This document shows positions 3,026 to 32,197 of a stretch of DNA of 64,000 bases, one piece after another. The DNA is from Arcobacter nitrofigilis DSM 7299 (lineage in GTDB: Bacteria > Campylobacterota > Campylobacteria > Campylobacterales > Arcobacteraceae). The position numbers were made by a program, and so were the translations under genes. The notes beneath the pieces are model-generated. The model searched no databases, was not told the DNA's origin, and worked only from the letters and a program-made list of their open reading frames with translations. The DNA lies in the NCBI RefSeq assembly GCF_000092245.1, contig NC_014166.1:2232001-2296000 (forward strand), written 5' to 3'. How positions within the stretch are numbered: the first letter of the stretch is position 1; each line of letters begins with the position of its first letter.

Positions 3026-4361
3026 AATACATTCCTGCTAAAGAAAGTCCAACAATAAACATAAAAGTTAGAAACATGTGATCTCTCATATTAGTATCAA
3101 CGACAGCACGTGATGCCGTACCAACCATAGTAAAGAATAAAAATATTGAGAAATAACTTTCATACTTTATAAAATACTTTATGCATAAGAATATAATATA
3201 AAAAAGAATCATTATGCACAAAATAACACCAATATATCCCATGGCTAATAACCATTCTATTAAACTACTATGTGCATGAGAATTTGCATGATTGGATCCA
3301 TAGTTGTTCTTTAAAGCTACTTCGAAACTATTTCGTTGATAACCAATTCCCATTGGATCTTTTATTGACATTAATAATCCAGCTTTAAACCAAGCAATTC
3401 TAGAATAATTTGAATCATTAACAGGCTCACCATTTTTTAATTTTGGCACTTTATATTTTAATTTATCTAACCAATAAAGATTATTATCTATATCTAAAGC
3501 TATTGGTATTGTTTCAATTAAACTATTCCATCTTTTATCATGTTGTATATTATAAGCAAAAGGTAATGATAGAAATAATAAAAGTAATATGGAAATTAAT
3601 AGCTTAATTTTTTTATTTATATTCTTTTTGTAGAAAATAAAGAATATAGATGATGTAGTTAAAAAAAGTAAAGCTACAACGCCATTTCTCATACCTTCAA
3701 ATGCAGAACTTAAAATAGTCATAACTAGAAATATTGTTAATAGAAAATTATTAATAGGTAAAATCTTATCCTTTTTCCTAAATCTATATATAACTTCTAC
3801 CATCAATAAACTCAACAAAGTATTAGTAAGCATATTAGCTCTATCTGGTCCCTCTGCTAATCCACTAATTCTTGTTACTATTGTCTTGTTATCAATAAAA
3901 TATCTAAATTCAAATAAATTTATATATATGATATGTATTAATAATGCTAATAAGATAATATAAAGTAAATCTTTTTTGTTAAAAACCTTATTATTTATAT
4001 TATGCACGCTTATAAGTAATACAAATCCCATAAAAAATGATAAAAAAGGATTTATCCACTGTCCATTTATCTCACTAAATGAATAATGAGGATTTTCACT
4101 AATAAATGCAGCGCCAAGAATAAGCCAAGTAGTTAATAAAATGTATAAATATTTAATAAATTTAAAATCCTTAGTTTTAAAAATTCCAAAAAGAAAAAAT
4201 TTATTCTTATAATATAAAAAAACACTGCTCAAAAGTAGTAAAGAAAAAAATAAATACCTTAGAGAATTTGTATGAGGTATTGGAAGAACAAATAAATAAC
4301 AAAATAAACTATAAGAAACAAAATGGTAAAATAATGTATGATTAAAAAAATTATATTTCAA
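2988..4361 (-). CDS. waaL: O-antigen ligase / WaaL-type polymerase-ligase
   Basis: A 457-residue polytopic membrane protein with about ten to twelve hydrophobic segments and one large loop (about residues 270-370) that would face the periplasm. The sequence SNHANSHAHSSLIEWLLAMG (about 360-380) matches the conserved H-x-x-L-...-G loop of the Wzy_C/WaaL family, which transfers undecaprenyl-linked glycan to lipid A-core. The start is TTG at 4359-4361 preceded by AAAGG; the spacer and the first two start bases form a run of eight T, so run length would alter RBS spacing. Only 26 bp separate it from the oppositely directed GT9 gene. Ligase versus polymerase cannot be distinguished here. Confidence 0.82.
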   Translation of the reverse strand: MKYNFFNHTLFYHFVSYSLFCYLFVLPIPHTNSLRYLFFSLLLLSSVFLYYKNKFFLFGIFKTKDFKFIKYLYILLTTWLILGAAFISENPHYSFSEINGQWINPFLSFFMGFVLLISVHNINNKVFNKKDLLYIILLALLIHIIYINLFEFRYFIDNKTIVTRISGLAEGPDRANMLTNTLLSLLMVEVIYRFRKKDKILPINNFLLTIFLVMTILSSAFEGMRNGVVALLFLTTSSIFFIFYKKNINKKIKLLISILLLLFLSLPFAYNIQHDKRWNSLIETIPIALDIDNNLYWLDKLKYKVPKLKNGEPVNDSNYSRIAWFKAGLLMSIKDPMGIGYQRNSFEVALKNNYGSNHANSHAHSSLIEWLLAMGYIGVILCIMILFYIIFLCIKYFIKYESYFSIFLFFTMVGTASRAVVDTNMRDHMFLTFMFIVGLSLAGMYFDKKKFNINPCE

Positions 4362-29914: not shown

Positions 29915-30790
29915 TTATTTGTCAAATCTTGTTCTGTAAGAACATTTTTGGCAAAGTTCTTCAACTACAATGCCTTTTTTAAATCCATCTTTTATATCAT
30001 TTACTCTTTTTGAAGTTAATATATTTTGTAAACCATCTTCAAAAACATTTCCTAGGTTAACACAGGCATCCTTATCCAAACAACAAGGAACAGCTGTTCC
30101 ATTTGCTAATATACCAAAATGAGAATCTAAACCATAACAAAAACCTTTGTCTGATACAAATTCATTTTCCAAACTTGGCCACTCAAAATAATCATCAAAA
30201 TTGAAAAATATCTTTCTTGCAACTCTTATATTTTTGGGTTTTGCCACATAAAACTGTTCAATGTCTAAAGTCAAATCAAAGTATTCATAAGCTTTTTCAA
30301 AAACTTTTTTATTAAACTCTTTTGCACTTTTTTCTTCATCAAAATTCCAAATTCTCAAATTTATGAAAAATTCAACTTCTTTTTCCAAAGCATATTTACA
30401 AAAATCAAAAATAGGAGTCAAATATTCATCTAAACTTTTTTTATGAGAATTCCCATTATATGAATTAATTGAAAAGTTTATTTGTTTTATTGCACTATTA
30501 CACAAAGATTCAAATTGTTCTTCTTTTAAGTTATATCCAGTAGTTGTAAGATTAACTTTTAAACCATGATTTTTACTTATGTCTAAATATTGATTTAAAT
30601 TTGACACAACCAAGGGATCACCAACTACATGATATGCTAACTCTTTTGTAACACTTGAGAGTTCACTATTTATCTTTTCAAACTTATCTAAACTCATTGT
30701 AGCATTTGGTAAGTTTTTTGGAGGACAAAAGGAACATTTTAAGTTACAGATATTGGTTATTTCGATATGTACTTTTTTAAAATTTTTAAT
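29915..30790 (-). CDS. Radical SAM/SPASM protein with an apparent ATT start codon
   Basis: A 291-residue protein when read from ATT at 30788-30790. The frame is open only back to a TAA three bases before AGC-ATT, and contains no ATG, GTG or TTG until codon 32 (ATG at 30695-30697), which lies after the catalytic CNLKCSFC motif (CxxxCxxC, the SAM-binding [4Fe-4S] site, from about residue 16). AAGG lies six bases before the ATT, ideal for initiation there. The C-terminal SPASM-like cysteines are CYGLDSHFG, PCCLDKDAC and ELCQKCSYRTR. The substrate is unknown. The gene precedes the CysZ-like gene and is divergent from the helicase gene. Confidence 0.8.
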   Translation of the reverse strand: MKNFKKVHIEITNICNLKCSFCPPKNLPNATMSLDKFEKINSELSSVTKELAYHVVGDPLVVSNLNQYLDISKNHGLKVNLTTTGYNLKEEQFESLCNSAIKQINFSINSYNGNSHKKSLDEYLTPIFDFCKYALEKEVEFFINLRIWNFDEEKSAKEFNKKVFEKAYEYFDLTLDIEQFYVAKPKNIRVARKIFFNFDDYFEWPSLENEFVSDKGFCYGLDSHFGILANGTAVPCCLDKDACVNLGNVFEDGLQNILTSKRVNDIKDGFKKGIVVEELCQKCSYRTRFDK

Positions 30791-30851
30791 GCTTTACCTT
30801 TAAAATAATTTTGGGAAGAGGAATAAAATTGAGATATTATACACTATTTGA

Positions 30852-30857
30852 TATAAT
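30852..30857 (+). promoter_or_regulatory. Probable -10 of the helicase promoter
   Basis: TATAAT in the 102-bp divergent spacer, 35 bases before the ATC initiation triplet. A purine-rich AAAAGGA ribosome binding site at 30880-30886 lies six bases before that triplet. The spacer must also hold the promoter of the radical SAM gene on the other strand. Confidence 0.5.
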
Positions 30858-30892
30858 CACTCTTTTAAAATACAAAACTAAAAGGAATAGTT

Positions 30893-32197
30893 ATCAAAAC
30901 TTTCAATAATATAAAACTTTGTTCAGAAATTTTAAAAGCTCTTGAAGAAGAAGGTTATGAAAAACCAACTGAAGTTCAAGAAAAAGTAATACCTGTATTA
31001 CTTAAAAATAGTGATGTAATTGCAACTGCACAAAGTGGTACAGGTAAAACTGCTGCCTTTGTACTTCCTATTTTACAAAAACTTTTTGAAACACAAGATA
31101 ATGATTCTACAAATAAAAGAGTTCTTAGAAGTTTGATTTTAGTTCCTACAAGAGAATTAGCAAAACAAATAGAAAAAAGCATCTCACACTATGGAAGATA
31201 TTTAGATATTAAACAGACTATTGTTGTGGGAGGATTAAGTCATAAAGAGCAAATTAGAAAAATAAATGCTGGGATTGATGTACTTGTTGCAACACCTGGA
31301 AGACTAATTGACCATATAAAAACAAAATCAGTAAACTTATCAAGTATAAATAATATAGTTCTTGATGAAGCTGATACTATGCTTGAAATGGGATTTTTAA
31401 AAGATATTGAACTTATCTTTTCCCAATGTGCAAAAACAAGACATATTGGAATGTTCTCTGCAACTATCAATCAAAATATTAAAAAACTTGCAAAAGAGTT
31501 TTTACACAAACCAGTTGTAATTGAAGTTTCATCACAACGTTCAGCTGTAGATATAATTGAGCAACAAATATATTTAATGGATGAAGATAAAAAAATAGAG
31601 TTTTTATCATATCTAATTGGTTCAGAAAATTGGGAACAAGTTTTAGTATTTGTTAATACTAAAGCAAAAGCAGATGAGATAACAGAACAGTTCAATTTAG
31701 ATGGACTAAAAACAGCTTGTATTCATGGAGATATAAAACAACCAGTTCGAGCAAGAGCACTGGAAGGCTTTAAATCAAAGTCATTAAGAGTACTTGTTGC
31801 AACTGATATCGCAGCAAGGGGAATAGATATAGAACTATTGCCAAATGTAGTTAATTTTGAATTACCTGAGACAACAGTTGATTATACACATAGAATAGGA
31901 AGAACAGGACGGGCTGGAAACCCAGGAGTTGCTACAACACTATTATGTGTAAAAGAGTATGTACAAATGGCTGAAATAGAAAAAGAGCTAATAATCAATA
32001 TACCAAGACTTACACATGATGAATATGAACTAAATGAAAAACAACCAAGAGTTGCAAGATTTAAAACACAATCACTTAGTCAGAAAAAAGGTTTAAGAGA
32101 TAAAAATAAAAAACCAAAAGATAAGGCTCAACTGCCTAAGAAAACAAAAAAGAAAAAAACAACAAAAAGAGATTCAAACAGAAGTTTTGGGAGATAA
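30893..32197 (+). CDS. DEAD-box RNA helicase (RhlE-like) with an apparent ATC start codon
   Basis: A 434-residue protein when started at ATC 30893-30895. The frame is closed upstream by TAA, and the first canonical start codon is a TTG at 31133, after the Q motif and Walker A, so starting there would remove essential parts. Motifs in order: Q motif EKPTEVQEKVIP, motif I AQSGTGKT, Ia PTRELA, II VLDEADTML, III FSATINQ, V ATDIAARGIDI, VI HRIGRTGRAG, then a lysine-rich tail of about 45 residues. AAAAGGA is correctly placed before the ATC. It would unwind RNA in ribosome assembly or mRNA decay. A small unknown gene follows three bases later. Confidence 0.88.
   Translation: MKTFNNIKLCSEILKALEEEGYEKPTEVQEKVIPVLLKNSDVIATAQSGTGKTAAFVLPILQKLFETQDNDSTNKRVLRSLILVPTRELAKQIEKSISHYGRYLDIKQTIVVGGLSHKEQIRKINAGIDVLVATPGRLIDHIKTKSVNLSSINNIVLDEADTMLEMGFLKDIELIFSQCAKTRHIGMFSATINQNIKKLAKEFLHKPVVIEVSSQRSAVDIIEQQIYLMDEDKKIEFLSYLIGSENWEQVLVFVNTKAKADEITEQFNLDGLKTACIHGDIKQPVRARALEGFKSKSLRVLVATDIAARGIDIELLPNVVNFELPETTVDYTHRIGRTGRAGNPGVATTLLCVKEYVQMAEIEKELIINIPRLTHDEYELNEKQPRVARFKTQSLSQKKGLRDKNKKPKDKAQLPKKTKKKKTTKRDSNRSFGR

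Follow-up and report, generated by a model that had tools for sequence, protein, structure and literature searches.

Two divergently oriented genes of Arcobacter nitrofigilis DSM 7299, one encoding an RhlE-like DEAD-box RNA helicase and the other a radical SAM/SPASM protein, begin with ATC and ATT, respectively. Comparison with relatives suggests that these are probably true start codons, and that both genes belong to a set held across the family Arcobacteraceae (which includes Arcobacter, Aliarcobacter and Poseidonibacter) on weak starts behind strong Shine-Dalgarno sites, a set whose translation IF3 probably limits. The pair lies in a stretch of 64,000 nucleotides (NC_014166.1, positions 2,232,001 to 2,296,000; hereafter the window) of a 3.19 Mb genome assembled as one contig. 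ATH denotes ATT, ATC or ATA, and canonical denotes ATG, GTG or TTG. Features of the locus are given in Table 1.

Table 1. Features of the divergent helicase and radical SAM locus, in window coordinates.
Feature	Position	Strand	Details
RhlE-like DEAD-box RNA helicase gene	30893..32197	+	434 codons, ATC start
Helicase ATC start codon	30893..30895	+	Read directly; homologous position ATH in 98/98 distinct orthologues
Helicase Shine-Dalgarno AAAAGGA, 6 nt ahead of ATC	30880..30886	+	Read directly
Radical SAM/SPASM protein gene	29915..30790	-	291 codons, ATT start
Radical SAM ATT start codon	30788..30790 (30790-30788)	-	Read directly; supported by relatives
Radical SAM Shine-Dalgarno AAAGG, 6 nt ahead of ATT	30797..30801	-	Read directly
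Sigma-70-like helicase promoter TTGAGA-17-TATAAT, TG before -10	30829..30857	+	11/12 consensus bases; kept in two sister species
TATAAT -10-like element of a divergent radical SAM promoter, within the helicase promoter	30836..30841	-	Read directly; kept in sister species

The initial annotation described both genes as lacking canonical starts while having ribosome binding sites and intact frames, and direct reading of the DNA bore this out. The helicase start reads AAAAGGA-ATAGTT-ATC-AAA-ACT-TTC on the plus strand, with an in-frame TAA nine codons upstream, and the radical SAM start reads TTTAAAGG-TAAAGC-ATT-AAA-AAT-TTT on the minus strand, with an in-frame TAA two codons upstream. The stop-to-stop frames of both genes are unbroken, and the 102 bp spacer described between them occupies positions 30791-30892. 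An open reading frame list restricted to ATG, GTG and TTG truncates both genes, moving the first start of the radical SAM gene to 30697 and that of the helicase to 31133. The statement that no other complete gene in the window needs an unusual start also held: start callers flagged only these two and one weak minus-strand candidate at 4157, upstream of which lies a TTG with AAAGG. The helicase matched PF00270 (157 bits) and PF00271 (106 bits) above cut-off. Its best NCBIfam match, RhlE PRK10590, scored 448.6 bits and missed the equivalog cut-off of 743; we therefore refer to it as RhlE-like rather than RhlE. The radical SAM protein matched PF04055 and PF13186 above cut-off and contains the CxxxCxxC motif; no NCBIfam equivalog passed its cut-off for this protein.

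Searches for the helicase in 104 family genomes yielded 81 places with E ≤2.4e-121, all of which were read. The start was ATH in every one (81/81). Weaker matches sampled in the family were paralogues, and the paralogues sampled in Arcobacteraceae start with ATG (9/9). A further 17 distinct helicase genes from other Campylobacterota, mostly Sulfurovum-like, also start with ATH, giving 98/98 distinct orthologues; the underlying table has 99 rows, one of them a duplicate (L244, identical to G052) that was dropped from the 98. With the duplicate included, the codons were 51 ATC, 27 ATA and 21 ATT, and a Shine-Dalgarno run of 5-6 bases was found at 5-7 nt in 99/99 rows, the spacing being 6 nt in 87/99. 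The full-length helicase tree required at least five third-base changes, none of them to ATG. Among distant RhlE-like genes of other phyla, many have an ATG immediately ahead of the aligned region. In one paralogous helicase from another Campylobacterota family (L234, genome G118) ATG is missing, and the start may be ATT or ATC.

For the radical SAM gene, 70 of the 93 Arcobacteraceae places with E below 1e-70 were taken. ATH was found in 59/69 readable rows, a canonical codon in 9, and one row had no clear start. Within the window's genus, each of the three species has a different start for this gene, namely ATT, ATA and ATC. Canonical family rows read ATG in genera g6, g7, g8 and g12 and TTG in one g9 genome (G064), indicating that these lineages may lack the trait or have lost it. 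Within or beside the ATH clade, loci L186 (G064) and L197 and L203 (both g6) have TTG, or ATG one codon upstream, and represent natural exceptions. In other families the radical SAM start was canonical in 17/17 rows. Four loci without the search motif were left out of these counts; one was masked, and the other three, from other families, read GTG, ATG and GTG. The radical SAM tree (86 rows) required at least 12 third-base changes among ATT, ATC and ATA, none of them to ATG, and 4 changes between ATH and canonical codons. A Shine-Dalgarno run of at least 4 bases preceded 57/59 ATH starts, and runs were stronger in ATH than in canonical rows (Mann-Whitney P = 9e-11, kinship ignored). This agrees with the compensation described by Belinky and co-workers, who, in the portions of the paper available, report that weaker starts accompany stronger Shine-Dalgarno sites in prokaryotes; their survey concerns GUG and UUG, with AUU nearly absent (1 of 61,358 ancestral AUG codons changed to AUU) (PMC5622118).

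The trait extends beyond the window. Forty stretches of 20 kb together with the window (864 kb, 27% of the genome, 800 gene-like ORFs) were screened with a caller that seeks ATH starts; it returned 23 rows, from which candidates were chosen by eye where the Shine-Dalgarno site was strong and the conserved N-terminus began at the ATH codon. Besides the window pair, these were an N-acetylmuramoyl-L-alanine amidase (ATT), an HI0933-like flavoprotein (ATA) and a TatD-family protein (ATA), and for each the best 30 loci of the search were read. Among these best loci, the amidase had ATT in 28/30, a count that omits one ATT row without a Shine-Dalgarno site (L390); the flavoprotein had ATH in 28/30, with one ATG and one GTG or ATT; and TatD had ATH in 30/30 family loci (28 ATA, 2 ATT). 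At the homologous TatD position in other families, the start was canonical in 20/20 genomes (14 ATG, 6 TTG). TatD is the cleanest case, canonical in every other sampled family of the order and ATH in all family loci read. The amidase ATT (L350:9224, minus strand; L365-L394) directly follows the stop codon of the preceding gene (GGAGAATAAAATT) and may be translated by re-initiation; no change to ATC or ATA was seen across its 28 clear loci. Further candidates in the sample were a response regulator (ATA; L399:11743, plus strand), a PF05618 protein (ATC; L396:6717, minus strand) and an FtsK-like translocase (ATA; L410:5491, minus strand).

The initiation machinery of the genome is ordinary. There were 55 tRNA matches, and the stretches examined with Aragorn gave 32 distinct sequences, three with the anticodon CAU. 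Marks of an initiator tRNA are the C1-A72 mismatch and an anticodon stem with three GC pairs; one of the three CAU tRNAs looks to be of this type, the only initiator-type sequence among them. The IF3 gene is present with an ordinary sequence that aligns with known IF3 over its length. As both components are ordinary, the likely mechanism is the known one, namely fMet-tRNA with a third-base mismatch, opposed by IF3. In Escherichia coli, infC and pcnB both start with AUU; the AUH start limits translation, IF3 acts as the discriminator, and infC is autoregulatory. The Arcobacteraceae set appears from its sequence to share the AUH start, and a limit on translation with IF3 as discriminator would be a second likeness. 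Unlike E. coli infC, however, the Arcobacteraceae infC gene starts with TTG in 20/20 readable family loci (30 examined, L315-L344), and the ATH genes do not encode translation factors. The TTG start rules out infC as an ATH gene and infC-type autoregulation; the usual partner of IF3 feedback is thus absent, and AUH does not serve autoregulation in the classic way here. Elsewhere, AUU, AUC or AUA has been reported for infC, in contrast to the TTG of this family.

We propose that the strong Shine-Dalgarno site would position the 30S subunit at the AUH codon, where the ordinary CAU initiator tRNA would pair with the first and second bases and mismatch at the third. IF3 would then reject most such complexes, leading to low protein output, and scarce IF3 or lax initiation should increase the output of AUH genes. 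In Arcobacteraceae the set would comprise the helicase, the radical SAM protein, the amidase, the HI0933-like flavoprotein, TatD and probably others. The drift of the third base among A, C and T, with ATG almost never returning, suggests that weak initiation itself is what has been retained. The analysis shows the sequences, the homology of the start positions, their conservation, the linkage, the strong Shine-Dalgarno sites and a normal initiator tRNA; initiation with fMet at the ATH codons, low output, dependence on IF3 and a benefit to the cell are the parts of this proposal that we infer.

The main rival to a set held on weak starts is weakly selected tolerance. On this account the ATH codons are genuine starts but relics of lax start choice in lowly expressed genes, where a strong Shine-Dalgarno site makes the codon nearly neutral and no regulation is involved. 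The five ATH genes have no common function linking them and are scattered over the genome, both of which fit such relics, and G is rare at neutral third positions, so that a return to ATG would be slow. The rarity of G bears on the opposing case as well: avoidance of G at the third base was discarded as proof of selection, being weak against fourfold-degenerate controls, in which 7/46 and 6/33 columns lack G, and 0/7 in the N-terminal helicase set. Against tolerance, canonical starts were called for 415/423 gene-like ORFs, so ATH is not neutral in general, and the same few genes hold ATH family-wide with the third base turning over and no ATG. Selection for weak starts is supported by this turnover, by persistence through many genera and by the near absence of return to ATG. 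We regard tolerated relics as rather unlikely.

A second alternative, raised by the initial annotation, is that the divergent helicase and radical SAM genes are jointly controlled as a pair through weak initiation. Linkage was judged from the listed match coordinates of both genes. Only in the window's genus are the two direct neighbours, with 90-102 bp between them in 3/3 genomes, and there both ATH starts are kept along with a divergent promoter region that overlaps; the same coordinates place the genes divergently, no more than 6 kb apart, in 11 genomes. Distances elsewhere were 0.76 kb in two g18 genomes, 2.3 kb in g3 and 5.7 kb in five g15 genomes, and in the remaining genomes the genes are distant or on different contigs. 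Both retain ATH where they are unlinked, and the trait is shared by three unlinked genes. In addition, Sulfurovum-like genomes keep the helicase ATH, but the four radical SAM genes read there start with ATG or GTG. Control specific to the pair is therefore improbable. Weak initiation remains the likeliest function of these starts, but a special status of the pair is not supported, the two genes adjoining in a single genus while at least three unlinked genes carry ATH; the pair probably represents two members of the ATH set that ended up adjacent in one genus. Within 30829-30857 the divergent -10-like elements overlap closely and the genes may compete for RNA polymerase. The minus-strand element is kept in the three species of the genus, has no good -35 and was not called by promoter scoring.

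Initiation at some other codon, or a special initiator tRNA or recoding that makes AUH a strong start, is very improbable. Two or three ATH codons lie side by side in some TatD and flavoprotein genes, which makes the exact start ambiguous and leaves some room for starts elsewhere. In neither window gene, however, does a canonical codon occur from the upstream in-frame stop down to the conserved N-terminus, and the same applies to the relatives with few exceptions; for TatD, other families have a canonical codon at the homologous position. The helicase promoter ends at 30857 and leaves a leader of only about 28 nt, which has no room for an upstream start or a large riboswitch. An Rfam search of 30400-31300 (E up to 1) gave no match, so no riboswitch or structured leader was found there. 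Among the fully read CAU and GAU tRNAs, none combines an initiator body with another anticodon, which leaves the single CAU initiator sequence, and AUC and AUU are beyond the reach of A-to-I editing. Sequencing error or a specific alteration of the window locus can be dismissed, as ATH stands at the same positions in dozens of other genomes and in the two sister species (ATC for the helicase, ATA and ATC for the radical SAM gene, with ATG at neither site, so that the refuting condition set in the initial annotation fails); the argument that two independent errors so close together are unlikely was sound, and the suggestion of a specifically altered locus was not.

Set on weak starts as we propose, the Arcobacteraceae genes resemble systems described in other bacteria. 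According to the available text of PMC13009471, Staphylococcus aureus cvfC1, ccpN and infC start with AUU, AUA and AUA, and cvfC1 and ccpN combine these codons with extended Shine-Dalgarno sites and low initiation in reporters. What these genes have in common with the Arcobacteraceae set is an AUH codon, a strong Shine-Dalgarno site and retention within one group of bacteria. The Arcobacteraceae set involves other genes in another phylum, at least five of them in roughly a quarter of one genome; its third base turns over, and infC does not belong to it. In Streptomyces, the passages available of PMC5472188 describe sigR as starting with GTC (GTT in two species), conserved in 34/34 species, with repression by IF3 established by experiment. 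A non-canonical start, a strong ribosome site and third-base variation are common to sigR and the ATH set, and experimental IF3 repression belongs to sigR alone; unlike the ATH set, sigR is a GTY start in one gene of one genus (PMC5472188). Searches of an open-access literature collection listed no report of such starts in Arcobacteraceae, Campylobacter or helicase genes. The accessible portions of a Campylobacter jejuni Ribo-seq paper contained nothing on them (PMC11955535), and those of an E. coli N-terminomics paper contained only distantly related passages (PMC13245402). An Epsilonproteobacteria transcriptome paper mentions only ATG, GTG and TTG in its available sections (PMC3847290), and ORF prediction for the Arcobacter butzleri genome, as described in the text available, used these three codons alone (PMC2147049).

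Taken together, the Arcobacteraceae case adds a new example, and an unusually broad one, to a known kind of translational control; its function is predicted. Gene callers limited to ATG, GTG and TTG truncate proteins that start at ATH. Only a few bacterial genes are known to have conserved AUH starts, and one family with at least five such genes across many genera offers a natural test of selection for weak starts. Tentatively, about 20-30 genes (some 1% of the genome) may start with AUH, their canonical codons having been replaced in or near the family ancestor and the weak starts held since; IF3 level or activity acting on them jointly would make a translational regulon with infC outside the loop. 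Should the set respond to IF3, a translational regulon could here be recognized from the DNA alone.
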